64,000 bases of DNA, taken from Halohasta litorea (lineage in GTDB: Archaea; Halobacteriota; Halobacteria; Halobacteriales; Haloferacaceae). The notes beneath the pieces are model-generated. The model was not told where the DNA came from. It did not search any database and worked only from the letters and a program-made list of their open reading frames with translations. The position numbers and the translations under genes are program-made. Positions 7,867-36,102 of the stretch are shown one piece after another (within the stretch, counting starts at the first letter, position 1; every line of letters starts with the position of its first letter). Location of the stretch: positions 124,001 to 188,000 of the forward strand of contig NZ_JANHDJ010000006.1 of NCBI RefSeq assembly GCF_024494645.1, given 5' to 3'.

Positions 7867-8664
7867 TCATATCGAACCCGTTTGGTAGAGATTCTGGACC
7901 TCTGTTTCAGCCAGCCCTTTATTGTATATCCGTGGATCGTCGATCCGTCCTCTAAAGGGACCGCCGTTCGAACGGGAGTGGGAGTCTCGTCCGATCCAAA
8001 CGGGGTCAGAAACTGAATTTAGAGACGGTGGGGCACTCACAGAATCTTCTAACTCGCCGTCGATATAGTAGGCAACAGTCGAACCATCATATGTCCCAAC
8101 GAGATGATGGTCATTCCCGTCATAAATATTCGTTGAGCCAACTGCACCCGCCGCCGACGAACTTCCCCACACCCGCATTGAACCGCACTCATTACCTCCG
8201 TGGTTTATCTGGAGAGTGTACGCGGCGTCATGGCCTTTCGAGACGCCCTTTGCCCAGTTACTACTCGACGAGGGCGAATTCATCCACAACGAGATTGAGA
8301 TGGCGTTCGTCAGGTCAAGTGACGATGGGTTCCCCGCACTAACGTAATCGCCTGTACCGTCGAATGAATACGACTCCCCCCCATATACAGCAGTCGCGCC
8401 CGTCGTCGCTCCATTTATCGTTGCGTTGTTGTCGTTCCATGCGTCGAGTGCTTCACCACTTTCCATGTCAGCATCGTCGAACGTCCATCGGGCGACCCCG
8501 CTGTCGGGTGTGTCACCAACGCCACTCGCAGATCGGGAGACTAGGTTCCCATCAACGACATCGACATTCTCCGCTGTGCCAGCTGCCCAATCCTCCTCAC
8601 CAGTCCATGAGCTCTCCTCGCGAGTACGCCGATCGCTAGTGAACCGACTCAACCCGTCTGTCAT
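7867..8664 (-). CDS. Jelly-roll array gene A: LamG-like protein, 265 aa
   Basis: Start chosen at ATG 8664 (MTDGLSRF), which aligns with every other member and lies exactly 25 bp from the conserved upstream box. Residues 1-45 are the constant module: SRFTSDRRTR, a Trp, DWAAG, ENVDVVDG and LVSR. The C-terminal part is a clear LamG/concanavalin-like jelly roll (SFDGTGDYVSAG, ISISLWM, VGTYDGS, YIDGE, GRIDDPRIYNKGL) ending LYQTGSI. No signal peptide or membrane segment is seen. LamG domains bind glycans or proteins; here that would be adhesion, fibre or cargo, none of it proven. The first 125 bp are nearly identical to gene B. Confidence 0.88.
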   Translation of the reverse strand: MTDGLSRFTSDRRTREESSWTGEEDWAAGTAENVDVVDGNLVSRSASGVGDTPDSGVARWTFDDADMESGEALDAWNDNNATINGATTGATAVYGGESYSFDGTGDYVSAGNPSSLDLTNAISISLWMNSPSSSSNWAKGVSKGHDAAYTLQINHGGNECGSMRVWGSSSAAGAVGSTNIYDGNDHHLVGTYDGSTVAYYIDGELEDSVSAPPSLNSVSDPVWIGRDSHSRSNGGPFRGRIDDPRIYNKGLAETEVQNLYQTGSI

Positions 8665-8688
8665 ACCGCATACCACCGAGGAAAGGAC

Positions 8689-8704
8689 ATTAGATGTTCC
8701 GGTC
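8689..8704 (-). promoter_or_regulatory. Array promoter box, gene A
   Basis: The coding strand reads GACCGGAACATCTAAT, ending exactly 25 bp upstream of the A of the ATG. This is the class II box shared by ten array genes, placed where BRE and TATA would be for a leaderless transcript. Confidence 0.7.
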
Positions 8705-8721
8705 GCCCGCACGACAATAAC

Positions 8722-8810
8722 CAGAATACTCTCACGACCTTCGTGTGAGCAACATCATCGACGCCATACCAGCCCCAGAACGACTCACGTATTAACACAC
8801 GCAGACACCG
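8722..8810. repeat. Direct repeat copy 2
   Basis: Begins CAGAATACTCTCACGA and ends GCAGACACCG like the copy at 7773-7860, with scattered substitutions. It lies just downstream of gene B, as copy 1 lies just downstream of gene A, so the duplicated unit was a jelly-roll gene plus its 3' flank including the methyltransferase tail. Confidence 0.7.
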
Positions 8811-8816
8811 AACGAC

Positions 8817-9602
8817 TCACGACCACGGTTGGGCGGTGTAATCTGAACCGATCTCGTCCGCTGTCAGCTGCTCCGAGTATATGATGAAGTCATCAATGAC
8901 CCCAGGGAACTGGCTAGTCCCAGGGGTTTTCGCGGCAATGTAGAAGTAATCACCAGCAGTATTTGCAGTGCCATTAGCTCGGTCGTGGGTGTCGTTCTGG
9001 GTGTTTATATACCACGTTGAGTCCCTATTCGGAATGTCGTAGTTTACCAAGACCCGATACTTCGTGTTTGTCGAAAAATCGAAGTCAGTATATCCTATTC
9101 CACCGAAATCAGACAGGTTCCCAACATCTATGAATAGGTTGCTGTCACCGTCCCACACCATTTTAGTTCCGTCTTCTCCCGCCCCCCCATCGTGGAATAG
9201 CGCAAAGGGATTTGACAGGTCGCTCGCTTCAAACGTAAGACCGACTGCGCCCACATCGGGAAGTAGGTTAGAGCCGTTTATTTCCGTATAATCATCTTGT
9301 CCATCGTAACTCAAAGCGTACCCCCCTTGCCAATCACCACCCACCCACGAAGTTCCACTGGTCGAACAATCCATCCCCCCAACATCCGCGTCGGCAAATG
9401 TTCCAACGCCCTCATCAAATTTCCAGCGGTAGATGGCACTGTCAGGTATGTCACCAGCACCACCCGTCGATCGAGAAACTAAGTTACCATCAACGACATC
9501 GACATTCTCCGCTGTGCCAGCTGCCCAATCCTCCTCACCAGTCCACGAGCTCTCCTCGCGAGTACGCCGATCGCTAGTGAACCGACTCAACCCGTCTGTC
9601 AT
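8817..9602 (-). CDS. Jelly-roll array gene B: LamG-like protein, 261 aa
   Basis: The constant module (residues 1-45) is identical to that of gene A. From about residue 50 the protein diverges into another LamG-like jelly roll (LSYDGQDDYTEING, VGLTFEASD, RVLVNYDI, WYINTQND, GVIDDFIIYSEQLTADEI). The segment after SRSTGGAGDIPDS parallels gene A (SRSASGVGDTPDS), so divergence begins abruptly after the shared linker. No signal peptide is present. Expression is probably from its own class II box 25 bp upstream, with a leaderless start. Confidence 0.88.
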   Translation of the reverse strand: MTDGLSRFTSDRRTREESSWTGEEDWAAGTAENVDVVDGNLVSRSTGGAGDIPDSAIYRWKFDEGVGTFADADVGGMDCSTSGTSWVGGDWQGGYALSYDGQDDYTEINGSNLLPDVGAVGLTFEASDLSNPFALFHDGGAGEDGTKMVWDGDSNLFIDVGNLSDFGGIGYTDFDFSTNTKYRVLVNYDIPNRDSTWYINTQNDTHDRANGTANTAGDYFYIAAKTPGTSQFPGVIDDFIIYSEQLTADEIGSDYTAQPWS

Positions 9603-9626
9603 ACCAGAGCCATCAAATCACGTGAG

Positions 9627-9642
9627 GTTAGGTGTATCGGTC
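9627..9642 (-). promoter_or_regulatory. Array promoter box, gene B
   Basis: The coding strand reads GACCGATACACCTAAC, 25 bp from the ATG at 9602. It differs from the consensus at one or two positions. Confidence 0.65.
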
Positions 9643-9700
9643 CTTCGGGTCACGATCGACCCGTAGACTCAAGTCAGAGAACGTGAACAGAGAAGTAGAG

Positions 9701-10237
9701 ATGGCAGCGAGCGAACACCCGGAGGGGCACGACGATATCGAACTCGACATCTGCGGTGGATACGATGACGAGGGCATGGAAGCACTCCTCGAGTTGGCGG
9801 GAGGTGACAGAATCCGAGTGAACGACACCGAGGCAACCCTGACGAGAACCGATCCTGTCTCCGATTCAAACCGAGCAATCAGCTGGGCGCGGGTACTCAC
9901 CGACGACGAAGGCAAGCGGTACCTGCTCGTCGTTCGGCTTGGCGACGGAACCTACATCTACGCAGAAACAGAGGGGAAGTGGGGTCAAAAAGAAGAGGTT
10001 GAAAGCCTCTCAGTCGTCGAATTAGCGGATGTCGGCTGGTGTGAAGTCTGTACCGTCTATATCCCAACTGGTGGCGACCACCCAGCAGACGAAACCCACC
10101 ACATCAGAGCGAACGACCAGGACGAAGCAAAGCAGAAGTTGAAAGGCCGAACCCCCCCGATCGACTACTACGCAGCGATCTACACGGATGTCGGAGGACG
10201 CTCAGAGATCATCAACGCAGCTCGAGAGACAGAATAA
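9701..10237 (+). CDS. Unknown acidic protein with CxxC, 178 aa
   Basis: ATG 9701 (MAASEHPEG) follows a purine-rich AGAAGTAGAG and is preferred over an in-frame upstream ATG at 9632, which overlaps the promoter box of gene B. The protein has a beta-rich middle (AISWARVLTDDEGKRYLLVV, GTYIYAETEGKW) and a CEVC pair near residue 122, followed by a stretch rich in His, Asp and Glu. No family is recognised. It starts the long plus-strand block that separates the two parts of the jelly-roll array. Confidence 0.65.
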   Translation: MAASEHPEGHDDIELDICGGYDDEGMEALLELAGGDRIRVNDTEATLTRTDPVSDSNRAISWARVLTDDEGKRYLLVVRLGDGTYIYAETEGKWGQKEEVESLSVVELADVGWCEVCTVYIPTGGDHPADETHHIRANDQDEAKQKLKGRTPPIDYYAAIYTDVGGRSEIINAARETE

Positions 10238-10249
10238 TCGACCCACCAC

Positions 10250-11023
10250 ATGGACAACCCCGATGAATCAGACCTACTTACCGACCTCAAAGACAAGTTC
10301 CGAACCCTCGGAGTCGCCTGTGTACTGGGATTCGGGGGCTACGGCCTCAGTATCTTCTGGTACACACCGTTCCGACTCGCTTCAGACCTCCCCTCGTTCA
10401 CACCCGACTACGGAGAGGCAATGGTGATGAACGACATCGCCTTGGGCCTCGCCGCAGTGACGATCGGCCTCCTCTATCTGAAATACTCCGGGAAGGGCCG
10501 GGAGTACATCGATGTCGAAATCCCGACGAAGCGACGGACCATCTTCATCATCGGCGGCACGCTCTCACTCCTCACAGCCCTGTACGCAATTAACAGCCTC
10601 AAGTCACACCTCAACGTCGACGCCTCACAACACACCGCTTCTCAAGCGGTAGCGGCGGGCTCAGTCGATCCACAGTACGTTCTGTTGATGATCCCGCTAT
10701 CGTTCCTGTTGATCGGCCCCGCTGAGGAGTTCATATTTCGCAATCTGGTCCAGAAGCGACTCTATGAGAGTTTCACAAAAGCGAGCTCCGTCATCATCGC
10801 GAGCGTCATCTTTTCAGCGATTCATATCCCAGCGTATGCGACAGGAACAACAGCAGGCCTACTGACCAGCCTCGCGACAGTGTTCACCCTCTCGCTGTTT
10901 CTCGGGGGGTTCTACGCCATAACCGAGGACCTCATCGTCGTCGCCGTGATGCACGGAGCCTATAACTCAGTGATCTTCGGCCGCTGGTATCTCGCAATCT
11001 CTGGCTCACCGCTTCCATTCTGA
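10250..11023 (+). CDS. CPBP-family intramembrane metalloprotease, 257 aa
   Basis: There are several hydrophobic segments (about 20-45, 60-80, 95-115, 140-160, 180-230). The CPBP (Abi/CAAX protease-like) motifs are in order: motif 1 PAEEFIFRNLV, with EE and R, at about 162-172; motif 2 FSAIHIP, with the metal-binding His; and motif 3 MHGAYNS. The enzyme cuts substrates within the membrane; members are known in CAAX-like processing, bacteriocin immunity and stress. It starts 13 bp after the previous gene, so the two may form an operon. The substrate is unknown. Confidence 0.9.
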   Translation: MDNPDESDLLTDLKDKFRTLGVACVLGFGGYGLSIFWYTPFRLASDLPSFTPDYGEAMVMNDIALGLAAVTIGLLYLKYSGKGREYIDVEIPTKRRTIFIIGGTLSLLTALYAINSLKSHLNVDASQHTASQAVAAGSVDPQYVLLMIPLSFLLIGPAEEFIFRNLVQKRLYESFTKASSVIIASVIFSAIHIPAYATGTTAGLLTSLATVFTLSLFLGGFYAITEDLIVVAVMHGAYNSVIFGRWYLAISGSPLPF

Positions 11024-11053
11024 CTACACAGTGACAGGCAGATGTAACCCATA

Positions 11054-11063
11054 TCTATATAAA
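11054..11063 (+). promoter_or_regulatory. TATA box for the HTH gene at 11086
   Basis: TCTATATAAA lies 23-32 bp upstream of ATG 11086, fitting a leaderless transcript. Confidence 0.65.
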
Positions 11064-11065
11064 CC

Positions 11066-11084
11066 CGAGACGAATAGCGTCTCG
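11066..11084 (+). promoter_or_regulatory. Perfect 7-bp palindrome between TATA box and start codon (operator)
   Basis: CGAGACG-AATAG-CGTCTCG. It fills the space between the TATA box and ATG 11086, so a bound dimer would block initiation. The gene it controls contains an HTH-like segment, which makes autorepression plausible. Confidence 0.6.
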
Positions 11085-11085
11085 C

Positions 11086-12270: not shown

Positions 12271-12365
12271 GAGAGTAAACAGGCCATTAGAAACAACTTC
12301 ATATCAATCAACACGACCACCGGAACCCCTACATACCCCGGCGTGAATCTCTGTGCTAAGCAACG

Positions 12366-12791
12366 ATGGGGTTCTACTACCACAGCGAAGATCTCGAAGC
12401 CGAGACGATACTCCGCAAGTGCGCGAACCGACTCGATGATGCCCCAACCGACATCGACGACATCAACGTCACCAAACGAGACGCAGTTCTCGCCGAGGAC
12501 CTCATCGAATCGGAGTTCACATCTGATTGGGTGACTGCGAATTACACCGAAAGCGGCGCGATCCAACTCGACACCCCATATCCCGAACTCAACAAGGAGA
12601 GTCGAGAAAAAGAACAGCAGCACCTCAAAGACAAGCGAGGCCAGTTCTTCTACGTCATCGGCGAGGTCTCCGGTGAAGGGACCACAGTAGCCATCAGTGC
12701 GCTCGCAGAGATCAGGGGCCGAGCCGCCGAAGAGAAAGTCGAATACTTCATCGAGGAATACACGCTCGGGCGTGTAGACCCCGCGAAGTGA
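12366..12791 (+). CDS. Unknown acidic protein, 141 aa
   Basis: ATG 12366 gives MGFYYHSEDLEAETIL, followed by a charged protein with one hydrophobic strand pair (QFFYVIGEVSGEGTTVAISAL). No cysteine, signal or membrane segment is seen. The C-terminal helix (RAAEEKVEYFIEEYTLG) is amphipathic. I do not recognise it. It lies 80 bp upstream of the FEN1-like gene, with a class I promoter-like element between them, so separate transcription is likely. Confidence 0.62.
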   Translation: MGFYYHSEDLEAETILRKCANRLDDAPTDIDDINVTKRDAVLAEDLIESEFTSDWVTANYTESGAIQLDTPYPELNKESREKEQQHLKDKRGQFFYVIGEVSGEGTTVAISALAEIRGRAAEEKVEYFIEEYTLGRVDPAK

Positions 12792-12797
12792 GAGTGT

Positions 12798-12836
12798 GGT
12801 TTTTTGCCCACCGGCTGAGAGTAGAGTAGATAATGA
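12798..12836 (+). promoter_or_regulatory. Class I promoter-like element before FEN1-like gene
   Basis: GGTTTTTTGCCCACCGGCTG followed by a purine tract with GAGTAG repeats, about 35-70 bp before ATG 12870. Confidence 0.45.
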
Positions 12837-12869
12837 GAACCAAAAGCTTCGGAAACGGTGGAGGGTGTA

Positions 12870-13826
12870 ATGGGGAATAGCGCACTCCGAACGCTCGCGA
12901 CATTAGAGGAGACGCCTCTCTCAGAATACGCAGGAGCAACGGTCGCGATCGACGCCCACCACTGGATCTATCGGTATCTCACCGGGTTGACCAGGTACAT
13001 GGACGACAACATCTACACCACCGAAGACGGGACGGAACTCCCGAATGTCGCGGGTGTCTTCCGCGGACTCCCCCCGATCCTCCGGGAAGACATCACCCCG
13101 GTCTTCGTGTTCGATGGGAAGCCCCACGAGCGGAAAGCCGACGAGATCCAGAGCCGGCGAGACGCGAAGCAGGAGGCGAAACAGAAGATGGCCGACGCTG
13201 CTGAAGCTGGCGACACCGCCGCCATGAAGCGGTACAAGGCACAAACCCAGTCGTTGACGCCGGCCATCCACGAGACGACCCGAGAGGCGCTGGAGTTACT
13301 CGGTATCCCCTACATCGAAGCCGGCGGCGCTGGAGAAGCCTACACAGCCAAGATGGTCGAATACGGCCTCGCAGATGCCGCGATGACCGATGACTACGAC
13401 GCACTCCTGTTCGGTTCACCAACGACGATTCGCCAATACACCGGGAAAGGCCCAGCAGAGAAGATGCTACTGAACAAAACCCTCCACAACCACGGGATCA
13501 CCCACGAGCAGCTCGTCGACATCGGGCTCATGTGCGGCACCGACTACAACGATGGCATCAGCGGGATCGGCCCGAAGAGAGGCGTCAAGTACATCACTAG
13601 CGGGAAGACGGTCGAGGAGATCCTTGAGGACAAAGGCGCGACCATCGACGGCCTCTCGCAGTTGCGTGAGTTGTTCCTCTCCCCGACGATCGGGTCGGTT
13701 CCGGATACACCCCTCACTCGAACCGAACCTGACTTCGCTCAGTTCCGAGCGTTCGCAAACGAGTGGGAGTTCCCGACTCAGTTCATCGAGAAAAACATCT
13801 CTCGCTTCCCGAGATACGCAGAGTGA
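12870..13826 (+). CDS. FEN1/XPG-family 5' nuclease with altered active site, 318 aa
   Basis: ATG 12870 gives MGNSALRTLA; an upstream GTG at 12858 is rejected. Family motifs are present: VAIDAHHW (D28), VFVFDGKPHERK (D82), TDDYDALLFG (D175, D177), GTDYNDGISGIGPKRGVK (D225 and the helix-two-turn-helix). The usual PSEGEA motif is GGAGEA, so one of the paired metal-binding glutamates is Ala (A154) while E156 remains. The C-terminus stops at RFPRYAE, without the PCNA-binding QxxLxxFF box. The length otherwise matches archaeal FEN1, which trims flaps in replication and repair. Changed activity or a structure-binding role are possible. Confidence 0.9.
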   Translation: MGNSALRTLATLEETPLSEYAGATVAIDAHHWIYRYLTGLTRYMDDNIYTTEDGTELPNVAGVFRGLPPILREDITPVFVFDGKPHERKADEIQSRRDAKQEAKQKMADAAEAGDTAAMKRYKAQTQSLTPAIHETTREALELLGIPYIEAGGAGEAYTAKMVEYGLADAAMTDDYDALLFGSPTTIRQYTGKGPAEKMLLNKTLHNHGITHEQLVDIGLMCGTDYNDGISGIGPKRGVKYITSGKTVEEILEDKGATIDGLSQLRELFLSPTIGSVPDTPLTRTEPDFAQFRAFANEWEFPTQFIEKNISRFPRYAE

Positions 13827-13859: not shown

Positions 13860-13877
13860 CTCGAATTCTGTAGATAC

Positions 13878-26769: not shown

Positions 26770-27780
26770 ATGATAGATGCCGATCCGGATCTACTTCGCC
26801 TCTTGGCGATCGCCCCGCTAGCGTGGGCCGCATGGAGCGACCACCACACCAGACGTGTCGACCGCCGGGTCTGGGCGGTCCTCATCTTTATCGGAGCTAT
26901 CGCCGCGGTCTGGCAGGTCGACCAAATCGCCCCTATCCACACAGTTGACGAGTACCGGATCCTCACACAGCTCATCATCGTCCCACCCGCGACCGGATTC
27001 CTCGCGATGGTTCTCTTCCGGACGGGAGCGTTCGGAGGAGCTGACGCGAAGGCGCTGTTCGCGCTCGGACTTGTGTTCCCGACCCCCATCGAGTACGCCC
27101 TACCGGCACTCTCCATACTGTTACCTATCTACCGGCCCCAGATCGCGCTTATCGCAATCGGATTCAACGCGATGTTGTTCGCTGTGCTCCTGTACCTCCT
27201 CAAGATGTGGGCACAGAACCTCAGACGTGGAGAGCGGGGCCTCGACCTGCTGATGACCGAAAAGGTCCCCGTCAGCAAGATCCCGGAAACGCCCGGACAG
27301 TTGCGGTGGACCGACGATACAGGAGAATCAAACACCCTCGATCTCGACGCACTCCGTATGTACCTCCGGTGGAAGAACGTCACTATAGAGGACATCCTTC
27401 AACACTCGGACGAGCACAGAACGCCCACCGAGATCGAAGCCGTCTACGAAATCGACGACGGTGTGGTTTACTCGGAGATCACCACAGGACACCCGCTTGC
27501 GTCAGAGGATTTCGATAGCCACGAGAATCCCACTATTGCCGACAGGAACGTCGCCATCGAGAAAGACGACGTGTGGGGGACAGAAACGTTTCTGGACTCG
27601 ATCACCCACACGGCATATGGGGCGTCACCAGACGACCTCCGGGGCGGCCTCGAGCACATACTGACCGCTCAGTCGGTACGGATCCAGCCAGCCTTCCCGC
27701 TTATCGTTCCGTTATTTCTCGGGGTTGTGGCCGCAGTCACCATCGGAGACATCATCGCGCTCTCAGCGGTATCTCTGTAA
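26770..27780 (+). CDS. Archaeal prepilin/pre-archaellin peptidase (PibD/ArlK type), 336 aa
   Basis: It has membrane segments from about residue 8 to 150. The two catalytic aspartates are visible: D24 in WSDHHTRRV and D92 in GAFGGADAK, the GxGD-type signature of A24 peptidases. After the last helix comes the haloarchaeal C-terminal extension with LLMTEKVPVSKIPETPG and LDLDALRMYLRWKN, and a final hydrophobic segment (about 310-334). It cleaves class III signal peptides of archaellins and pilins at the membrane. The archaellins at 3329-4926 on the same DNA are the obvious substrates. Confidence 0.92.
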   Translation: MIDADPDLLRLLAIAPLAWAAWSDHHTRRVDRRVWAVLIFIGAIAAVWQVDQIAPIHTVDEYRILTQLIIVPPATGFLAMVLFRTGAFGGADAKALFALGLVFPTPIEYALPALSILLPIYRPQIALIAIGFNAMLFAVLLYLLKMWAQNLRRGERGLDLLMTEKVPVSKIPETPGQLRWTDDTGESNTLDLDALRMYLRWKNVTIEDILQHSDEHRTPTEIEAVYEIDDGVVYSEITTGHPLASEDFDSHENPTIADRNVAIEKDDVWGTETFLDSITHTAYGASPDDLRGGLEHILTAQSVRIQPAFPLIVPLFLGVVAAVTIGDIIALSAVSL

Positions 27781-28264: not shown

Positions 28265-29014
28265 TCAACGAATAGAGCCCGTATTGTATAGATCAGACAC
28301 TCTTACCGAGGAGAGAGCTTCACCATAGATGCGTAGGTCGGCAATCATTCCATGGAGATAACCACCACCATCAGCCTTGTGACCTACTCGGAAGGTCCCC
28401 GAACCACCTGGACCATCATTCCCAGACATCGCTCCAACGGCCACCCCATCACGGTAGAACTGTGCTCTGCTATTCGAATCATCCCAAGCGATAAGACAGT
28501 GATACCACCTACCCAGCTCCCAAGACAACTGATTAGAGACGTAGCCATGGCCGAATGTTCCAAACCAGAGCGACCCATCAGCGTGTACATGAAATTGGTA
28601 AGCCCGCCCCTTGTGGACCATCGGAACGACATCGCCAATTCCGGATGTCACGTTCAACCACACTGAGATCGATGCGTCAGATGAAATCTGGAAGACCTCC
28701 CCGAAAGTGACCTCACCGTTACCGTCAAATCGCTTAGCATACTGACCAACTGGGGAATCCACACTATACCCCACAGAGGTTCCATCAACACCACCATTAT
28801 CTCCCCAAGAATCGGCTACATTTTGCTCAAACGCAAAACGAGATATGCCACTATCAGGCCGCTCAGCGATTTGATTTGGTGCTCGGGGGACCACACTACC
28901 ATCGACGATGTCGACGTTCTTACCCACCCCCTGATCCCAGTCTTGTATGCTGGACCACGAAGCATCATCACACCCGCGGCGGTCGCTCTTGAATCGACTC
29001 CCCTCACCAGTCAT
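28265..29014 (-). CDS. Jelly-roll array gene C: LamG-like protein, 249 aa
   Basis: Constant module with more changes than most: SRFKSDRRG, DDASW, DWDQG, KNVDIVDGSVVPR. The C-terminal part is a textbook LamG jelly roll: KRFDGNGEVTFGE, ASISVWLNV, VMVHKGRAYQ, WYHCLIAWDD, FYRDGVAVG, GMIADLRIYGEALS and a final LYNTGSI. It is the most diverged LamG-type member and the last gene of the block in transcription order. The class II box is 25 bp upstream and sits against the stop of gene D. Confidence 0.87.
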   Translation of the reverse strand: MTGEGSRFKSDRRGCDDASWSSIQDWDQGVGKNVDIVDGSVVPRAPNQIAERPDSGISRFAFEQNVADSWGDNGGVDGTSVGYSVDSPVGQYAKRFDGNGEVTFGEVFQISSDASISVWLNVTSGIGDVVPMVHKGRAYQFHVHADGSLWFGTFGHGYVSNQLSWELGRWYHCLIAWDDSNSRAQFYRDGVAVGAMSGNDGPGGSGTFRVGHKADGGGYLHGMIADLRIYGEALSSVRVSDLYNTGSIR

Positions 29015-29054: not shown

Positions 29055-29810
29055 TCACGGTGAACGATAGCCGACAAAATCCACGTAAGCAACTGAACTG
29101 TTACCATTCCGGTTGTTAAGTCCATACCCTATCCCCCCAGATGTAAGCCCACTATCTGTACCAGACATAGACCCCAACTCGGAGCCTTCAGAATCGAATA
29201 CTTTTACGAAATGGTCTCCGTCCGTACGCCAATCAACTTCAACTGTGAGCCATTCATTAGACGGGATATTCCGAGTGCTGCTGTTCGCGACCGTTCCCCC
29301 CGAGCGCCGGTTATCCAGCCGCATGGAATTATGCTTGTTCCGAAGTGTGACTCGGTATCCTGTACCGTTCGCCCGATCTCCCTGTTGAACACCATAGTAT
29401 AGATACAGCGCATTATTGTCTCCGTTTGGGAAGAGAACATGAAAAGTTGGGATGTCTCCCGCACTCGGATACGAGAATAAACCAGACGTCGACCCCAGTG
29501 CGAACACCCTTCCATTCGTAGCGATCCGAGCCAGGTTATCCCCCTCTAACGATCTTGAACTCTGAACCACGCTTGCGCTACCATTGTCCTTAGAGGAGTC
29601 TACAACGTACTCTGTGAGGCTTCCATCCTCAAAGTTGTCCGTGACAAAATCGAGGTCTTCGCCGCCCTCCGGAGGGGGTGTCGGTACCAGCCCCCCACCC
29701 GAGATTTCAACATTCTCAACCACGCCCGCCTTCCAATCCTCATCAGTTTTCCACGACGCCTCTCCTCGAGTCCGCCGATTGCTGGTGAACCGACTCAATT
29801 CGCCAGTCAT
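29055..29810 (-). CDS. Jelly-roll array gene D, second C-terminal type, 251 aa
   Basis: Start at ATG 29810 (MTGELSRFTSNRRTR), aligned with the family; upstream codons in frame are not conserved. The constant module is followed by DNFEDGSLTEYVVDS, the opener of a second beta-sandwich type shared with genes E to I. This type has a glycine-rich GTGYRVTLRN strand, an EWLTVEVDW strand, a D/E-rich turn (FDSEG) and a late SGGIGYG motif. It is probably a concanavalin-like fold distinct from LamG proper. No signal peptide is present, and the ligand is unknown. Confidence 0.86.
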   Translation of the reverse strand: MTGELSRFTSNRRTRGEASWKTDEDWKAGVVENVEISGGGLVPTPPPEGGEDLDFVTDNFEDGSLTEYVVDSSKDNGSASVVQSSRSLEGDNLARIATNGRVFALGSTSGLFSYPSAGDIPTFHVLFPNGDNNALYLYYGVQQGDRANGTGYRVTLRNKHNSMRLDNRRSGGTVANSSTRNIPSNEWLTVEVDWRTDGDHFVKVFDSEGSELGSMSGTDSGLTSGGIGYGLNNRNGNSSVAYVDFVGYRSP

Positions 29811-29834: not shown

Positions 29835-29850
29835 GTTATGTATTCCGGTG
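29835..29850 (-). promoter_or_regulatory. Array promoter box, gene D
   Basis: The coding strand reads CACCGGAATACATAAC, 25 bp from ATG 29810. Confidence 0.6.
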
Positions 29851-29890
29851 GGGACATAAGAAAGCAGTCCCCCACGTGAAAACCGGCTCA

Positions 29891-30634
29891 TCAGTTTATC
29901 GTGATGTAGTCTGTCCATGAATCGAGAGCGCCGTAATAACTTCCACTTGTGTTCAAACGCTGCTCCGCTAGTGTATTCTCAGTACCAACGTTGACTTTCT
30001 GTATCTGCGTAACAGACCCCGTAGCATCCATATCCGCTGTCACAGTCCGCTGAGCCCCCGACTCGAGGTCTTCAAAAGTGTACGTCACATCCTCTTGAGC
30101 GTAGTCGAAATCTAGACGCAGACGAACCCACTTACCGTATCCGTCACCGGAATACAGTTCATACCCACTTCCGCCGTCTACATAGATCCAAGCTGGGTTG
30201 CTAGTCCCAGCGCCGGCCACACGCCCACCGTCAGCATCTAGGAACTGGTAGCCATGCCCGTAGGATGAACCGGTCTCGCGCCAAAACAACTGAACAGTAG
30301 ACACACCCGCACCCAGACTGCGCTGGCCTAAAAGATAATCACGAGTAGACGTCCCAGAAGAAGCATGAAGGCTGTTTGAACCGTCATACGCACGGTTGCT
30401 TACAATCTTGACATTGCTGGTTTCAGACCACGCACCCAAACTCCCGTCTTCGAAGTTCTCAACTACATTACTGGGCTCACCGTCGCTTGATGGCGTCGAC
30501 CTGCGAGGCACCAAGCCACGGTCAACTACATCAACGTTTTCGGCTACACCCGCCCCCCAGTCTTCCGGATCAGCCCAAGACGCCCCTCTTCGGGTCCGCC
30601 GATCGCTGGTGAACCGGCTTGTTTTCTCACTCAT
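29891..30634 (-). CDS. Jelly-roll array gene E, second C-terminal type, 247 aa
   Basis: MSEKTSRFTSDRRTRRGASW, DWGAG, ENVDVVDRGLVPR form the constant module. ENFEDGSLGAWSET opens the second beta-sandwich type; later strands include VQLFWRETG, WIYVDGG, YGKWVRLRLDFDY and VTADMDATG, but the late GGIG motif is missing. It is the only complete member without the class II box; it starts 53 bp after the stop of gene F and is probably read from the promoter of F. A short inverted repeat (ACACCC with GGGTGT) lies in that gap. Confidence 0.86.
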   Translation of the reverse strand: MSEKTSRFTSDRRTRRGASWADPEDWGAGVAENVDVVDRGLVPRRSTPSSDGEPSNVVENFEDGSLGAWSETSNVKIVSNRAYDGSNSLHASSGTSTRDYLLGQRSLGAGVSTVQLFWRETGSSYGHGYQFLDADGGRVAGAGTSNPAWIYVDGGSGYELYSGDGYGKWVRLRLDFDYAQEDVTYTFEDLESGAQRTVTADMDATGSVTQIQKVNVGTENTLAEQRLNTSGSYYGALDSWTDYITIN

Positions 30635-30687
30635 ACATCAACACCCGCTGCGCGTGGGGTGTGGTAGAGGCTCAGATGCTAACTGGG

Positions 30688-31425
30688 TCATTCCCACCGC
30701 CTCACTTCATCGAATTGTCCTTGATGCTCATCGCTGTCCCCGCCATGGGAGAACCCGATCCCTCCGGCATCGAACGTGCCATCCGCAGTCGAGAAAGTCG
30801 CTAGCTCAACCCCCTCGGCATCGTTTATTCGGTATACCTCAGTCCCACCCACCCTCGGCTCAAACACCACCTCGTACCACGTGTCAAGCGACTGCGACAG
30901 AGATTTGGTCGCGATCTTGTCTGTTACTGGGGATTCACCGGCCCCACTCCTGAAAACAATGACGTTGTTATCGTCTTGTCGAAGCTCGATGTAGTACCCC
31001 CCAGGCGTCGCAGTTCCTTCCTGAGTCATGAAGATAATACCCGCCTCACGCTGATAGACAGTCGAGCTAGACACGCTCTTGTTCATGACCCACCCGCTGT
31101 AAACACCACCGCGTTCAACAGCCAGATCTGTCCGCGAAATCACGTTGTACTTGTCACCCATGAGCTCCATCGAGTGATCGCCCGCATACACGGGTGAACT
31201 CTGTATCGAAGCGTGTGTAGTCCCACCGCCGTACGCAGAGTTGAGCGACCCTCCTTCAAAACCCTCTAGCAGAACCCCAACCCCCACCGCGGGCCGGGGG
31301 ACTAAGCCACCCTCAACGATATCCAGATTTTCAGACACACCCGCTGCCCAGTCTCCATCGCCCGTCCACGACGCACCCTCACGGACACGCCGATCGCTCG
31401 TGAATCGGCTTTCTCCGCCTGTCAT
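30688..31425 (-). CDS. Jelly-roll array gene F, second C-terminal type, 245 aa
   Basis: Constant module MTGGESRFTSDRRVREGASW, DWAAG, ENLDIVEGGLVPR, then LEGFEGGSLNSAYGGG and a beta sandwich with VYAGDHSMELMGD, TPGGYYIELRQDDNN, WYEVVFEPRVGG, VYRINDAEGVELA and GGIGFSHGG near the end. The order of strands follows gene D. No catalytic residues are evident. Own class II box 25 bp upstream; probable start of a two-gene transcript with E. Confidence 0.87.
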   Translation of the reverse strand: MTGGESRFTSDRRVREGASWTGDGDWAAGVSENLDIVEGGLVPRPAVGVGVLLEGFEGGSLNSAYGGGTTHASIQSSPVYAGDHSMELMGDKYNVISRTDLAVERGGVYSGWVMNKSVSSSTVYQREAGIIFMTQEGTATPGGYYIELRQDDNNVIVFRSGAGESPVTDKIATKSLSQSLDTWYEVVFEPRVGGTEVYRINDAEGVELATFSTADGTFDAGGIGFSHGGDSDEHQGQFDEVRRWE

Positions 31426-31449
31426 AACCTATCTGACCAAGTACAGAGC

Positions 31450-31465
31450 GTTAGGTGTTCCGGTC
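31450..31465 (-). promoter_or_regulatory. Array promoter box, gene F
   Basis: The coding strand reads GACCGGAACACCTAAC, the exact consensus, 25 bp from ATG 31425. Confidence 0.7.
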
Positions 31466-31503
31466 AACCCCACCACCGAGCCGACAACAGCATCGAATAA
31501 CGA

Positions 31504-32256
31504 TCACGTCGTCAAGATCTCGTCCCAGTAGACCTCTTCATCAATTCCCGAACCACTCCCAGCCCCGTAGTAGTTACAAGCGAACCCGATTCCTCCCGCC
31601 ACGTATGTGGGGTCCAGCGCACTCAAAGACGCAATCTCCGATCCGCCAGAGCCCTCGACGACAACATCGATCTGGCCATTTTGCCCCCAAATAATCTGTA
31701 CCCGCAACCACTCGTCAGCTGGAGGTCTAATACCAACCGAATCCAACACAAACCCATCCCGAAGCAACTCTACACCGTTATTGTTCCTGTCGAGATTGAC
31801 GCAGTAGCCATCAGGGTAGGCAGACTCGGACTGAGCCGCAAAGTAGAACTGCGAGACAGGATCGCCAGCCGACGACGATTCAATATAATTCCGGTACGAG
31901 ATCACATCCCCCGCCTTCGGATAGTCATCAAGCCCGGACGTTGAAACAGCGAAGACCTCACTCGTGCGCTCCGGATGATCATCGCGAAGTGACCAACTAC
32001 CGTCGAACGCTCGCGCCTGAGTGACTTCCAACGGAGAATCAATATACCCGTATTCAGACAGCGAGCCACTCTCAAAGTCGTCGACGACATTACTGGGAAG
32101 CTCACCACTCTCGACAAGTTGATCTCGGGCCACCAACCCCCCATCAACGACGTCGACGTTCTCAGCAATCCCCGCCGCCCAATCGCTTTCGCTCTCCCAT
32201 GAAGTATCCCCGCGGAGACGCCGATCGCTGGTGAACCGACTCGATCCATCAGTCAT
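31504..32256 (-). CDS. Jelly-roll array gene G, second C-terminal type, 250 aa
   Basis: Constant module MTDGSSRFTSDRRLRGDTSW, DWAAG, ENVDVVDGGLVAR. The second part opens with DDFESGSLSEYGYIDS and continues with SWSLRDDHPERTSEVFAVS, DYPKAGDVISYRNYI, YPDGYCVNLDRNNNG, EWLRVQIIWGQNG and AGGIGFACN, closely following genes D and H. The leader and first codons are identical to those of gene H over more than 70 bp, while the rest differs, implying recent exchange or copying of the 5' cassette. Confidence 0.87.
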   Translation of the reverse strand: MTDGSSRFTSDRRLRGDTSWESESDWAAGIAENVDVVDGGLVARDQLVESGELPSNVVDDFESGSLSEYGYIDSPLEVTQARAFDGSWSLRDDHPERTSEVFAVSTSGLDDYPKAGDVISYRNYIESSSAGDPVSQFYFAAQSESAYPDGYCVNLDRNNNGVELLRDGFVLDSVGIRPPADEWLRVQIIWGQNGQIDVVVEGSGGSEIASLSALDPTYVAGGIGFACNYYGAGSGSGIDEEVYWDEILTT

Positions 32257-32280
32257 ACACTCCTCATTTCAGAGAGAGGC

Positions 32281-32296
32281 GTTAGGTGTTCCGGTC
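32281..32296 (-). promoter_or_regulatory. Array promoter box, gene G
   Basis: Exact consensus GACCGGAACACCTAAC on the coding strand, 25 bp from ATG 32256; identical surroundings to gene H. Confidence 0.7.
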
Positions 32297-32334
32297 AAAA
32301 ACTGCCGTGAAAGACCAAGAGGCCGGGGAGACGC

Positions 32335-33090
32335 TCATTTGATGCCCACGTTGTCTATCCTAACAACAATAGGTCGATTAGCACCGACGTAGTATCCAAC
32401 CCCACCAGACGTTCGAGAACTATTATGTGAACCACTTACGGATGTTTGCTCATTACCATCTCGATCGTACACGGTCACAACGATCTCGTTAGGCAACCAT
32501 TGGATCTCCCACTCTTCCCACGCATTTGCGGGGTAAGAGTACGACACCCTGTCAATAATTACTGTACCGTCAGGAGCATAGACGTAAAAATCTGAATTAC
32601 CCCGATTCAATCGCAAGTTAAACCTGGTGCCATCATTCTCATCATACCCCCAGAATATATTACCAGCGTTGCCACCAATAGAAGCCTTATCGACCCAATT
32701 CCAGTAGCTAAACGTGTCTCCCTCCTGTGGGTAATCCAACCCATCGCCTTCGTAAGAGACCATCCAGAAATTTGACTGCCCACCATTATGCGATCCTTCA
32801 AGCACATACCCTCCTTCGTGGACACCACCACTTCGGCGTGTGAACTGGGATACATCGTTACTGTAGTAGTCACTGAGGGCCTTCCCTTCGCCTTCATAGA
32901 GGACTTCATCAAAGTCATCGACTACACGAGTCTGTGTCCCACTCCCTTCTGATGGGGGGCGACCCACTAATCGGTCGGCCAGCAGCCCAACGTTCTCTGT
33001 AGTTCCAGCTTCCCAGTCGGCTTGCTCAGTCCAAGACGCCCCCATTCGAGTACGCCGATCGCTGGTGAACCGACTCGATCCATCAGTCAT
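32335..33090 (-). CDS. Jelly-roll array gene H, second C-terminal type, 251 aa
   Basis: Constant module MTDGSSRFTSDRRTRMGASW, DWEAG, ENVGLLADRLVGR (a less usual ending also seen in K, which has ENVELVADDLVGQ). The body shows VVDDFDEVLYEGEGKALSDY, NFWMVSYEGDGLDYPQEGD, FNLRLNRGNSDFYVY, EWEIQWLPNEIVVTVYDRDG and SGGVGYYVG. The DYPQEGD segment recurs in D, G and I. The 5' end is shared at the DNA level with gene G. Confidence 0.87.
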   Translation of the reverse strand: MTDGSSRFTSDRRTRMGASWTEQADWEAGTTENVGLLADRLVGRPPSEGSGTQTRVVDDFDEVLYEGEGKALSDYYSNDVSQFTRRSGGVHEGGYVLEGSHNGGQSNFWMVSYEGDGLDYPQEGDTFSYWNWVDKASIGGNAGNIFWGYDENDGTRFNLRLNRGNSDFYVYAPDGTVIIDRVSYSYPANAWEEWEIQWLPNEIVVTVYDRDGNEQTSVSGSHNSSRTSGGVGYYVGANRPIVVRIDNVGIK

Positions 33091-33114
33091 ACACTCCTCA
33101 TTTCAGAGAGAGGC

Positions 33115-33130
33115 GTTAGGTGTTCCGGTC
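33115..33130 (-). promoter_or_regulatory. Array promoter box, gene H
   Basis: Exact consensus GACCGGAACACCTAAC on the coding strand, 25 bp from ATG 33090. Confidence 0.7.
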
Positions 33131-33136
33131 AAAAAA

Positions 33137-33934
33137 TCAGACAACGCCCTCACTGACGCAAACCTCGTCGAAGAAGGCGCGTGATCGACGACCACCATTA
33201 CCGAAATTGTTTGAGAAAAACCCGAAAGCCCGATTACCGAGAGCGGCTTCACCCGCAGCATCGTACGTTACTGAATTGATGAGTGTGTGATCTCCCCGAT
33301 CGTCGCTACCGTTCGTTTGATACAACTCATAGACCAAATTGGCGTCCGAAGAAAACTCAAACCGCCCCCGTAACCACTCGTCAAGGTAGTTCCCGATAGA
33401 CACCCTCGAAAAAGATCCTTCACGAGAATCTAACGCCATGGAGAAATCAGAATTATTCCCATCTGCGCGGATCTCACACTCATACCCCTGAACCCAATTT
33501 GACGGGTTCCCATTCGTCCCGATGACAACGGAAGTGGAGCACGTTTCGATGAAATCAGCATAGATGTACCACTCAACAACATCCCCCTGTTGTGGGTAGT
33601 AGTTTAGACCGTCACCTTCTCGGGAGAACACCTTCGTCGAGCTGGCATTATCGAACTCAACACAGCGCGACCCCATCCAATACCGGCTCGTCGTTGTCGA
33701 GAATGATCCCCGACCATTGCTATCCTTATTATACTCACCAACATTAGCGTCTTCAAACGTCTCAACGGCTGTCGCAGGAACATCCCCCGCTTGTGGCGGG
33801 GTGCGAGGGACCAGCCCCTCCTCAACGACATCGACATTCTCAGCAATCCCAGCCTGCCAATCACTACCATCCACCCACGACGCACTCTCCCGACGACGTC
33901 GATCGCTAGTGAACCGGCTCGGTTCCCCCGTCAT
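33137..33934 (-). CDS. Jelly-roll array gene I, second C-terminal type, 265 aa
   Basis: Constant module MTGEPSRFTSDRRRRESASW, DWQAG, ENVDVVEEGLVPR. The body includes VETFEDANVGEYNKDS, LNYYPQQGDVVEWYIYADF, GYECEIRADGNNSDF, EWLRGRFEFSS, VYELYQTNG and FGFFSNNFGNGG, which replaces the GGIGF motif. Two cysteines (CVEF, CSTSV) are unusual for the family. The stop lies 6 bp from the promoter box of gene H, so the genes are tightly packed but each has its own promoter. Confidence 0.87.
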   Translation of the reverse strand: MTGEPSRFTSDRRRRESASWVDGSDWQAGIAENVDVVEEGLVPRTPPQAGDVPATAVETFEDANVGEYNKDSNGRGSFSTTTSRYWMGSRCVEFDNASSTKVFSREGDGLNYYPQQGDVVEWYIYADFIETCSTSVVIGTNGNPSNWVQGYECEIRADGNNSDFSMALDSREGSFSRVSIGNYLDEWLRGRFEFSSDANLVYELYQTNGSDDRGDHTLINSVTYDAAGEAALGNRAFGFFSNNFGNGGRRSRAFFDEVCVSEGVV

Positions 33935-33958
33935 AGCCTACATGTTCCAGTACACGAC

Positions 33959-33974
33959 GTTAGGTGTTCCGGTC
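33959..33974 (-). promoter_or_regulatory. Array promoter box, gene I
   Basis: Exact consensus GACCGGAACACCTAAC on the coding strand, 25 bp from ATG 33934. Confidence 0.7.
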
Positions 33975-34087
33975 GCTAACACCCAAAACCAGCCATGGGC
34001 GGGACGACTCCAAGAGTAACCACACTTCGGCGGCTGTATCATCCAACTAAGTCAGCACACAACGCTACAAAAACAGACACAACGAAC

Positions 34088-34627
34088 TCACGTATCTACG
34101 TCAACCTCTACTTCAGCGATTCGCTTATTCGTCGAGTCATCAACTTGAACTCGGAAATTCTCGCTGGATTTCCACCCGTTATCTAATTCATCATCCAAAG
34201 AGACGACATACCAAGGGTTACCGGAGACGTCCCAATCCTCTTTAATCACGGTTCCTGACGGTTGAAGTGAGATGTCGATCGAGCCTTTCGTACCGTCAAA
34301 ATCAAATCTGATCTGCTTGTACTCTTGGTCAACAGAATATTCGATATAACCACTCTCTGAAGAATCAAGGACAGAGTACGTCGACACGTCACCGTCAATA
34401 GAACCATTCCCTGACGTTCGAGCGATTCCCTCGGAATTAGCAACAACAGGTTTCTGCCACTTTTCGCTAGTAGGCACACCATCGTCGAGTGGGGTTTGAG
34501 CGACTAACTCACCACCAACAACCACAACGTTCTCAGTAGTACCATTCAGCCAATCCTCGCCAGTCCCCCACGATGCGCCCTCACGGGGCCGCCGATCGCT
34601 GGTGAACCGACTCGACTCATCAGTCAT
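34088..34627 (-). CDS. Jelly-roll array gene J, third C-terminal type, 179 aa
   Basis: ATG 34627 (MTDESSRFTSDRRPREGASW), then DWLNG and ENVVVVGGELVAQTPL. The remaining 120 residues differ from the other members: no LamG or FEDGSL opener, but a short beta sandwich with STYSVLDSSESGYIEYSVD, IRFDFDGTKGSIDISL, WYVVSLDDELDNGW and NFRVQVDDSTNKR. It shows that the constant module can carry at least three unlike C-terminal domains. The promoter box is diverged but correctly spaced. Confidence 0.85.
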   Translation of the reverse strand: MTDESSRFTSDRRPREGASWGTGEDWLNGTTENVVVVGGELVAQTPLDDGVPTSEKWQKPVVANSEGIARTSGNGSIDGDVSTYSVLDSSESGYIEYSVDQEYKQIRFDFDGTKGSIDISLQPSGTVIKEDWDVSGNPWYVVSLDDELDNGWKSSENFRVQVDDSTNKRIAEVEVDVDT

Positions 34628-34651
34628 ACAAACCACACTCCAGAAACACAC

Positions 34652-34667
34652 GACAGGCATTCCAGCC
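34652..34667 (-). promoter_or_regulatory. Array promoter box, gene J (diverged)
   Basis: The coding strand reads GGCTGGAATGCCTGTC, 25 bp from ATG 34627. It keeps the spacing and the GGAA and CCT cores. Confidence 0.5.
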
Positions 34668-34699
34668 ACCCCAGCAAGAGAGGCCCCACACTAAACCGC

Positions 34700-35506
34700 T
34701 CATCCACTGACACCCCCCGTATCGTAATGATTCGAGACTTCAGAACTGCTCAGTTCCCGACTGTAAATATCCATTGCGTCTATTTTCCCGTCGAACCAAT
34801 CTGGGTTGCCCCCACCAGGCCAAACACCAACATACAGATTTTCGTTGTAATCCGGCAGGGGCTCATTCAGCGTTTCAGACCCAATATCCGCTCCACCTTT
34901 GTAGAACGTGAGAGTTGAACCATTATATGTAACAGCGAAGTGTTCCCACGTATTTGTTGAATATCTATTCCCGCCAACATTGAAGGAACTGTCTTCCAGG
35001 GTTATGTGCATATCATAACCACTCGCCCCACCATTGATGCCGAACCGGATAGATTGGTTCCCATCAGGTGGGGCATTCATGACGAGTGCAGAAAATTGCT
35101 GGTCGTCTATGAACGGGTACACCCACCCGATAAACGTGAATGAGTCATTAGTAGATATGTCGTTCCAAACGTCGCTAGTAGTTGTGTGAGCGTACTCACT
35201 CCCATTCCTATCGAATCGCAGAGAATGTGGCCCTTCATATCCACTAGAGGAATATGATGCACCGCTGAGCGCCAAGTCGAAATTGCTGAACTCATCCGTG
35301 ACCGGACCAGAGCCATCATTCATCATCCAACGGGCCACCCTACCTTCCGATATCTCACCTGTTTGAAGTGGAGATTGGCCCACTAGATCGTCGGCCACGA
35401 GCTCGACGTTCTCAGTGGTGCCAGCTTCCCAGTCCGCTTGACCAGCCCAAGATGCCTCTTGGTGAGTACGCCGATCGCTAGTAAACCGACTCGATCCATC
35501 AGTCAT
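34700..35506 (-). CDS. Jelly-roll array gene K: LamG-like protein, 268 aa
   Basis: Constant module MTDGSSRFTSDRRTHQEASW, DWEAG, ENVELVADDLVGQSPL. The C-terminal LamG jelly roll has RFDRNGSEYAHTT, SFTFIGWVYPF, WEHFAVTYNGSTLTFYKGG, NLYVGVWPGG, GKIDAMDIYSRELSSSEV and a final YDTGG, the same plan as genes A to C. It is the first complete array gene in transcription order, next to the remnant L and the winged-helix gene. Confidence 0.88.
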   Translation of the reverse strand: MTDGSSRFTSDRRTHQEASWAGQADWEAGTTENVELVADDLVGQSPLQTGEISEGRVARWMMNDGSGPVTDEFSNFDLALSGASYSSSGYEGPHSLRFDRNGSEYAHTTTSDVWNDISTNDSFTFIGWVYPFIDDQQFSALVMNAPPDGNQSIRFGINGGASGYDMHITLEDSSFNVGGNRYSTNTWEHFAVTYNGSTLTFYKGGADIGSETLNEPLPDYNENLYVGVWPGGGNPDWFDGKIDAMDIYSRELSSSEVSNHYDTGGVSG

Positions 35507-35530
35507 ACGCTAACGCTCAAGACACGCAAT

Positions 35531-35546
35531 ATTAGCCATTCCGGTC
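35531..35546 (-). promoter_or_regulatory. Array promoter box, gene K
   Basis: The coding strand reads GACCGGAATGGCTAAT, 25 bp from ATG 35506. Confidence 0.65.
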
Positions 35547-35580
35547 GATCCATCTGGATAGGTATAAGCATCAAACTCAG

Positions 35581-35835
35581 CTACTCCAAGACCACGTAAT
35601 CATACACTTCATCAGCTGTACCAGCCGAATTGAATCCGATCCCACCGGAACTCCAACGAGAGTCATTCCCGACTAATGGACCATCAAGAAGAGAACCGTC
35701 CTCACCGTATATCTCGACTACAAAATCACCGCTGCTGCCCCAGTCAATCCTGATTTGATACCACTCGCCCAATCGATAATTGTAATCCAGAGAGTGATAC
35801 CCCGCATAGTAGTGTCCCAATTCGCCAATGTGGAT
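35581..35835 (-). pseudogene. Remnant L: 3' end of a jelly-roll array gene
   Basis: The C-terminal 85 codons match the second array type: HYYAGYHSLDYNYRLGEWYQIRIDWG, YGEDGSLLDGPLVGNDSRW and SSGGIGFNSAG. The constant N-terminal module is absent; the frame continues upstream only as the antisense of the winged-helix gene at 35842. So the 5' part of this array gene has been replaced by unrelated DNA. It is probably not expressed as a functional product. Confidence 0.75.
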
Positions 35836-35841
35836 TTCACC

Positions 35842-36102
35842 ATGAGACAGTCGGGCAAGTGGATGTCGATATGGGATGACCGAACCCTCGAAATTTTGTC
35901 GATGGAGGGGCCAAAAACCCCGAGTAAGATCTCTGAGCGGGATAACATCCGAGTCGGATCGAGCAATATCTCGCGCCGGCTGAGTAAGCTCGCCGACCAC
36001 AATCTCGTCGATCACCTAGGTAATGGTGTGTACAGGATCACCGACAGCGGCCACGCCTACCTCGCCGGAAAACTCGATACCGGCGATTCAGAGAACACAT
36101 AA
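35842..36102 (+). CDS. Winged-helix repressor of the PhiH1-like type, 86 aa
   Basis: ATG 35842 begins MRQSGKWMSIWDDRTLEIL, the start typical of haloarchaeal PhiH1-repressor-like winged helices; the open frame further upstream lies in the array remnant and is ignored. GPKTPSKISERDNIRVGSSNISRRLSKLADH is the helix-turn-helix, and GNGVYRITDSGHAYLAG is the wing. Such proteins regulate viruses, plasmids and many chromosomal operons. It is the only plus-strand gene between the array and the giant protein gene, so it could regulate the array head, which is inference from position. Confidence 0.85.
   Translation: MRQSGKWMSIWDDRTLEILSMEGPKTPSKISERDNIRVGSSNISRRLSKLADHNLVDHLGNGVYRITDSGHAYLAGKLDTGDSENT

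Follow-up and report, generated by a model that had tools for sequence, protein, structure and literature searches.

A plasmid-borne family of small haloarchaeal proteins with one N-terminal module and exchangeable beta-structured back ends

Genes of the array

The window, a stretch of 64,000 nucleotides from Halohasta litorea, lies on a 297-kb plasmid (contig C31). It carries all eleven minus-strand genes (A to K) that an initial annotation had described as sharing a short N-terminal module; they are listed below with their neighbours and promoter-like motifs.

7867–8664, minus strand: gene A, module (E = 9e-27) and LamG_3 back end (PF13385, E = 6e-26)
8817–9602, minus strand: gene B, module 96% identical to that of A, and LamG_3 back end
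28265–29014, minus strand: gene C, module and LamG_3 back end
29055–29810, minus strand: gene D, module and FEDGSL-type sandwich
29891–30634, minus strand: gene E, module and FEDGSL-type sandwich, weak CBM_4_9 match; without the −40 motif
30688–31425, minus strand: gene F, module and FEDGSL-type sandwich, matching the HCTV-5 gp137 region at 1e-7 (tblastn)
31504–32256, minus strand: gene G, module and FEDGSL-type sandwich (AlphaFold model, Foldseek)
32335–33090, minus strand: gene H, module and FEDGSL-type sandwich
33137–33934, minus strand: gene I, module and FEDGSL-type sandwich
34088–34627, minus strand: gene J, module and small back end of a third type
34700–35506, minus strand: gene K, module and LamG_3 back end
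35581–35810, minus strand: remnant, the 3′ end of another family gene that is intact (as X4) in a related plasmid
36225–41831, minus strand: upstream neighbour of the array, multi-TM N-terminus and nine CARDB repeats
31451–31465, minus strand: promoter-like motif GACCGGAA-N3-CTAA, beginning at −40 of gene F
8690–8704, 9628–9642, 29836–29850, 32282–32296, 33116–33130, 33960–33974 and 35532–35546: further −40 motif sites

Most genes of the family have such a promoter-like motif of their own at −40, and a motif search gave just two better candidates for it before other genes, at C31:90280 and 235765. Judged by the position of the module and of the −40 motif, translation of A, D and J begins at the internal ATGs 8664, 29810 and 34627. 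The proteins are without a signal peptide, as had been noted: among 15-residue windows that start in residues 1–30, the most hydrophobic one averages at most 1.07 on the Kyte-Doolittle scale.

The module is about 45–46 residues long and forms the same front across the family, with 14 invariant positions among 47 alignment columns and a mean column identity of 71%. In a search of the whole genome, the window copies gave E values of 9e-27 to 9e-25 and are therefore not chance matches. At E ≤ 0.01 this search returned 24 copies, all on C31 (11 in the window and 13 beyond it), and no copy on any other contig of the genome. Together with about four diverged relatives, near C31:29734, 30523, 54095 and 67335, the family totals some 28 small genes and extends far beyond the window. 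Among paralogs, pN of the module is 0.26 against a pS of 0.64, with an invariant W/DW/N core.

Back ends of unrelated fold behind one front

The classes of back end proposed earlier hold. Genes A, B, C and K contain the LamG_3 domain, with E values between 3e-9 and 6e-26 and scores of 37.5–91.8 bits against the Pfam gathering cut-off of 27.6. The backs of D to I align as a single family, although Pfam gave no match for D, F, G, H or I and the CBM_4_9 match of E is below threshold. The structure model of gene G (pTM 0.73, pLDDT above 70 over most of the back) resembles CBM66 with a TM score on the target of 0.71–0.73 and an E value of about 1e-6 (Foldseek), so that the FEDGSL-type back, as represented by G, is predicted to be a legume-lectin/ConA/CBM66-like sandwich. 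The model of the LamG type was poor (pLDDT 53), and the module itself stays below a pLDDT of 50 in both models, a value that is uninformative given the 7–11 sequences available. Beyond the window, the same front precedes two classes of beta-propeller, PQQ and WD40, which gives at least five types of back end behind one module. The proposal of the initial annotation would have failed if the module merely belonged to a single known enzyme family; because several unrelated folds follow it, this is not the case. Similarity among the modules is independent of the type of back end: the nearest module neighbour carried the same type in 5 of 22 cases, against 5.9 expected from shuffles. Judged from their folds, the backs may serve to recognize glycans or proteins on the surface of other cells.

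Loss and exchange in a related plasmid

Halorubrum laminariae harbours a 302-kb plasmid that is about 99% identical to the 297-kb element. The two hosts are distantly related salt-loving archaea; a comparison of 1.7 kb of their chromosomes gave 76% identity. A candidate module on contig C34 of this relative was discarded as a chance match in a Nudix-like ORF.

Within the module family, the two plasmids differ at two places. The first is the upstream end of the window array, which is short of three and a half genes kept in Hrr. laminariae. A deletion of about 2.7 kb joined the 3′ end of a family gene to flanking sequence, and the removal of these genes explains the remnant. The junction, at about 35806–35810, carries the direct repeat ATAGT of 5 nt. 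The initial annotation had counted the remnant (35581–36015) among the sequences sharing the module; it does represent a further family gene, but by its 3′ end only, and this interval is without the module. The second place is a propeller gene, which in Hrr. laminariae is a chimera with the crossover inside the module, between about nt 15 and 98: the upstream region (120 of 120 positions identical) and 5′ module of the WD40 gene are fused to the PQQ back. The 3′ half of gene G is also a divergent patch between the plasmids, with 38 differences concentrated in the back part.

An identical array in related strains would have spoken against exchange, and array content was found to differ between the two plasmids. 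The repertoire had been proposed to be interchangeable, and this part of the proposal is supported by the chimera, the differences between the arrays and the independence of front and back. The chimera documents, in a near-identical plasmid, a natural exchange of front and back modules among archaeal plasmid genes. Since a plasmid of about 99% identity resides in divergent hosts and encodes a VirB4/HerA-like ATPase common to 205 plasmids, a role in transfer or contact is plausible.

Relation of the module to tail-tip and baseplate proteins

The C-terminal half of the module reads W-x4-DW-x6-N-V-x-V-x-x-G-x-L and recurs at the N-termini of proteins of the tail-tip type, namely a baseplate protein of a contractile injection system, a phage protein and a halovirus LamG protein. 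Between the module and the tail-tip sequences hhalign gave a score of 24.7, whereas 60 shuffles of the columns reached 13.5 at most, and a profile of the injection-system N-terminus ranked module proteins as the top 15 among 313 plasmid ORFs. In the phage loci L193 and L194, TWQTKADWQAGIAENLEI begins two proteins, one of 123 aa and one whose gene directly follows that of the tape measure. Because the second half of the module recurs at N-termini of the tail-tip type, the front may plausibly act as a dock, although the analysis found no partner for it.

The host itself encodes a contractile injection system (C28:330101–348961), and in haloarchaea such systems serve contact-dependent antagonism (PMC11566945). 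The module proteins might be its cargo, or accessories of its spike or fibre, which the front loads or docks on the baseplate. Enough of its genes are present for the system to be recognized (sheath, CIS_tube with LysM, gp25, GPD, base V and two Baseplate_J genes), and by profile the module residues 21–43 match the conserved N-terminus of its Tail_P2_I protein, with the spacing DW-x6-NVDV-x-DGG; a search of 391 other Halobacteria gave a single module match that is not on the plasmid, and it falls in this injection-system protein. The own-genome copy continues into an apparent propeller; unlike the module proteins, the Tail_P2_I protein has a Tail_P2_I domain and is encoded on another contig, within the cluster of the injection system. 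However, 39 of 292 haloarchaea have Tail_P2_I homologs whereas the module is limited to the plasmid, no toxin-like back was seen, and the genome of Hrr. laminariae, the second plasmid host, lacks the injection system and any homolog of this protein (it is a draft, so the absence is not absolute). The injection system is therefore not an obligatory partner, and we regard it as improbable that the family serves it.

The front may also be no dock at all. The element W-x4-DW-x-AG precedes LamG in ordinary secreted haloarchaeal proteins and in HCTV-5 gp136, so that the module may be a structural preface. According to this explanation, an old LamG preface was duplicated along with an efficient promoter and start region, the paralogous beta-proteins, cytoplasmic or at the surface, differ in their functions, and recombination simply takes place in the conserved 5′ DNA. 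DNA identity is indeed highest at the very start (83% over nt 0–39, about 60% over nt 39–135, then 33%, and 27% further on), the conservation includes the −40 motif, and between orthologs pN/pS of the module (0.42) is not below that of the backs (0.22), a comparison that involves only 14 changes. However, the W/DW core is retained in diverged members whose sequence is otherwise dissimilar (C31:42247, 53274 and 236490), and the module precedes propellers, which need no LamG preface. We hold this explanation to be unlikely on balance, yet a serious contender.

Comparison with viruses and other plasmids

The back ends resemble proteins of halovirus tail regions, namely HCTV-5 gp137, HGTV-1 gp33 and an insert in the baseplate J-like protein of HATV-2, and are homologous to them in fold. 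The element further has a virus-like nucleotide metabolism: it encodes an intein-containing ribonucleotide reductase, and several HGTV-1 genes have homologs on it. These features would suit a bank of tail-fibre domains, either in a virus-plasmid or as a donor store for the receptor-binding domains of tailed haloviruses. However, tblastn of the plasmid ORFs to the whole of HGTV-1 and to partial loci of other haloviruses revealed no capsid or tail gene on the element, with only the back domains matching tail-region genes of the other haloviruses, and the Baseplate_J and sheath matches of the genome are located on C28, so that the family is not encoded within a virus tail module. Each gene also has its own front, in most cases with a promoter motif, and a search of viral contigs found the full module on none. 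A bank of this kind thus seems quite improbable.

The halovirus proteins (HCTV-5 gp136 and gp137, HGTV-1 gp33 and the gp28 insert of HATV-2) share their types of back domain with the module family, and gp136 also has the W-DW-like preface; they differ in sitting in viral tail regions, without the SRFTSDRR front or a multi-copy array. Likewise, haloarchaeal PF13385 proteins have the same back as A, B, C and K but are mostly larger multidomain proteins, whereas those described here are small, leaderless and module-fronted. No match to phages was obtained by tblastn with B or with a distant member, and the module alone gave a single, bacterial match among plasmids, which is due to chance. Plasmids of Halorussus and Haladaptatus with multiple matches were rejected as arrays, since each carries single large proteins. 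A link to plasmid vesicles of the pR1SE type was also set aside, judged by the text alone of the pR1SE paper, from which LamG, laminin and CARDB are absent.

Comparison with known systems of exchange

The combination of a constant N-terminus with exchangeable C-terminal ends on a mobile plasmid is reminiscent of the IncI shufflons (PilV of R64 and TP114), and in TP114 the exchangeable adhesin ends set the choice of recipient (PMC9045228). A tyrosine-recombinase-like gene exists elsewhere on the element, at C31:202056, and a dedicated site-specific recombinase could in principle swap back ends at one expression locus. However, a start and a module belong to each single back, mostly along with a promoter motif, and the array contains neither inverted cassettes with short crossover repeats nor an adjacent recombinase; the variants are separate intact genes. 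The observed crossover lies within homologous module sequence, and homologous exchange of this sort is again unlike a shufflon. A switch of this kind is very improbable. The module proteins are, in addition, not pilins, as they have no leader.

Exchange of the binding ends of tail fibres is found in haloarchaea in PhiCh1 (ORF34 and ORF36, with the invertase ORF35), whose tail-fibre protein has a galactose-binding C-terminal region (PMC4284463). That system comprises two genes and an invertase in a virus, whereas the module family is plasmid-borne, numbers about 28 stand-alone genes and has no invertase next to it on the megaplasmid.

Proposed role

The explanation that we tentatively prefer, at somewhat less than an even chance, is a repertoire of small proteins, similar to adhesins or receptor-binding proteins, that dock by the front on a common structure and are reshuffled by homologous recombination. 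The mobile megaplasmid would carry these binding proteins as separately promoted genes. By its homology to the tail-tip and baseplate N-termini of phages, haloviruses and contractile injection systems, the C-terminal half of the module would be an attachment element, through which every member could attach to one common structure encoded by the plasmid or the host. The back ends (LamG/ConA-like, CBM66-like and PQQ or WD40 propellers), as far as their folds suggest, would recognize surface glycans or proteins of other cells, and diversity would be maintained without a dedicated recombinase, the conserved 5′ DNA being the place where ordinary homologous recombination occurs and genes are lost.

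A more specific version, which we consider possible but doubtful, is that the roughly 28 leaderless, interchangeable proteins have a docking front derived from tail tips, display their lectin-like or propeller ends on an apparatus for contact or transfer that the plasmid encodes, and are diversified by recombination in the docking segment. Such an archaeal recognition repertoire would be previously undescribed. If the backs do recognize targets, the repertoire could account for the arrival of the plasmid in two so different hosts. The short N-terminal element common to phage tail-tip, archaeal injection-system and plasmid proteins is amenable to a test of whether it is a general docking tag. 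The CARDB protein upstream of the array (36225–41831) may be considered a candidate surface partner of the module proteins.

Family architecture and distribution

The family is modular in architecture, recombines through its shared front, has both gained and lost members, and lies on an element found in two distant hosts. The initial annotation had recognized eleven minus-strand genes (A to K) with a common N-terminal front, and all eleven are present. Their alignment contains 14 invariant columns in the first 47 residues (M1, S6, R7, F8, S10, R12, R13, S19, W20, D25, W26, G29, N33, and V42). Among 15 paralogs, the mean DNA identity is 0.83 at nt 0-39 and about 0.6 up to nt 135, past which it falls to 0.33 and then 0.27, the level of unrelated sequence. 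In the 3.81-Mb draft genome, in which the window spans C31:124001-188000, 24 module copies were found at E≤0.01, all on the 297-kb plasmid contig C31, and the weaker relatives bring the total on C31 to about 28:

C31 near 70-78, 132-134, 152-160, 210-212, and 222-225 kb: module clusters
C31 near 42, 53, and 236 kb: single module copies
C31 near 29734, 30523, 54095, and 67335: weaker module relatives
C31:222156-223352: module plus PQQ/BamB-type propeller, outside the window
C31:223421-224449: module plus WD40-type propeller, outside the window

None of 391 other Halobacteria genomes contained the full module, with one weak match (G028), and Halorubrum laminariae R60 was the only source of it among GTDB contigs, with 27 copies on one 302-kb contig. 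A 28th listed match, on another contig of that strain, was attributed to chance.

The back of A, B, C, and K is LamG_3, and the backs of D to I align as a single family; J and members like it have a third type of back. The model of G is a mostly confident sandwich beyond residue 52; among solved structures it is closest to legume lectins, CBM66, and sandwiches related to them, and its best viral matches include HGTV-1 gp33 (R4TMF9, 278 aa) and R4TNE6, whose length of 237 residues is consistent with HCTV-5 gp137. A tblastn match of G at 3e-7 lies in an insert within the baseplate J-like protein of HATV-2.

The motif GACCGGAA-N3-CTAA begins 40 nt upstream of the ATG in most members, including the diverged member C31:42247, and at 39-42 nt in the remaining carriers; E, the family member X2, and several diverged members do not have it. 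At ≤2 mismatches the window holds 13 matches against 2.7 expected, and 8 of the 13 precede array genes. The motif is probably a BRE/TATA-like promoter for leaderless mRNAs. The internal ATGs at 8664, 29810, and 34627 should be the better starts for A, D, and J, respectively, and bring the motif into register. It also precedes two small genes outside the family, C31:90280 (-) and 235765 (+) (100 aa; a membrane protein directly preceding one of the diverged family members), which could be co-regulated partners.

Assortment, exchange, and loss

Fronts and backs assort freely. In 5 of 22 cases the nearest neighbor by module DNA has the same kind of back (label shuffles, 5.9 ± 2.3), and the mean module identity is 0.661 within back types versus 0.655 between them; the nearest module neighbor of K (LamG) is H (FEDGSL type), and that of the PQQ gene is the WD40 gene. 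Between paralogs the module has a pS of 0.64 and a pN of 0.26, a ratio that is a guide only, with pS near saturation. Between orthologs of the two plasmids, pN/pS is 0.42 for the module (14 changes), 0.22 for the backs, and 0.11 for 208 other plasmid genes, which is somewhat relaxed and does not indicate positive selection.

C31 and the H. laminariae contig Scaffold4_1 (compared over loci L025-L037 and L076-L094) are circularly permuted and ~300 kb in size, with long blocks at about 98-99.6% identity, whereas the host chromosomes share 76% identity across one aligned stretch of about 1.7 kb. The plasmid has thus moved recently from one haloarchaeon to a distant one. The module family is affected by two of the structural differences between the plasmids. 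The array, which the initial annotation had viewed as a possible interchangeable repertoire, differs in content: in H. laminariae four extra array genes separate K from the CARDB gene (36225-41831, minus strand). The window array has a ~2.7-kb deletion with the 5-nt repeat ATAGT at the joint, and the 3' end of the fourth extra gene is left as a remnant (35581-35810). The truncation of this gene marks the window state as the derived one. At the propeller site, H. laminariae has one gene and C31 two. The upstream 120 nt of the single gene are those of the WD40 gene, and from nt 98 onward it tracks the PQQ gene, which places a crossover inside the module. Reduction of two genes to one by a homologous-recombination deletion is the simplest direction, although not the only one possible. 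In addition, gene G (31504-32256) has 38 differences between the plasmids, concentrated in its 3' part, compared with 1-2 in neighboring genes; no donor was found, and the sampled variant words are absent elsewhere in both plasmids.

Shufflon adhesins (PMC9045228) and PhiCh1 tail fibers (PMC4284463) are alike in way of working. However, the genes here are separate and complete, with neither an adjacent recombinase nor invertible cassettes, and the family is therefore not a member of those systems.

Possible partners of the front

Module residues 21-43 match the conserved N terminus (ADW-x-EW-x-GRNVDVRDGGI) of a Tail_P2_I protein in the same genome, whose N-terminal half is propeller-like. It belongs to the following system:

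C28:330101-348961 (L161): contractile injection system with CIS_tube+LysM, sheath, gp25, two Baseplate_J, and the Tail_P2_I protein

The hhalign probability is 79 and the score 24.7, where 60 column shuffles reached no more than 13.5; in the reverse profile search, module proteins rank first among 313 plasmid ORFs. The weak G028 match lies within this same Tail_P2_I protein. In two IMG/VR phages (L193 and L194), TWQTKADWQAGIAENLEI opens both the protein whose gene directly follows the tape measure and another of 123 aa; these proteins at tail-tip positions combine a constant DW front with different back parts of unequal length. HCTV-5 gp136 has a related preface ahead of its LamG domain, as do secreted haloarchaeal proteins, so the W-DW-type element is not tail-specific. 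The basic SRFTSDRR stretch was observed in the module family alone.

We suggest that the front would attach every family member to one structure and that the backs may recognize ligands. The resemblance to Tail_P2_I makes the injection system a conceivable partner, but the draft genome of H. laminariae has no homolog of that protein, and an obligatory partnership is thus unlikely. Candidate partners on the plasmid are the multi-TM CARDB protein encoded upstream of the array and the VirB4/HerA-like transfer region.

The plasmid also encodes a ribonucleotide reductase and, beyond it, a virus-like replication and nucleotide set:

L125:526-4137: intein-containing ribonucleotide reductase, related to that of HGTV-1
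L028, L029, L033 (C31:80994, 81696, 213318) and window 12858-13826: TMP kinase, DHFR-like, thymidylate synthase-like, and FEN1/XPG-like genes, assigned by eye
L127:3425-5869: NrS-1-like polymerase domain protein

Window positions 3329-4926 and 26770-27780 hold two adjacent archaellin/pilin-like genes plus a gene for a type IV prepilin peptidase-like protein; the archaellin/pilin-like pair has near-identical N termini and is a second constant-front pair on the plasmid.
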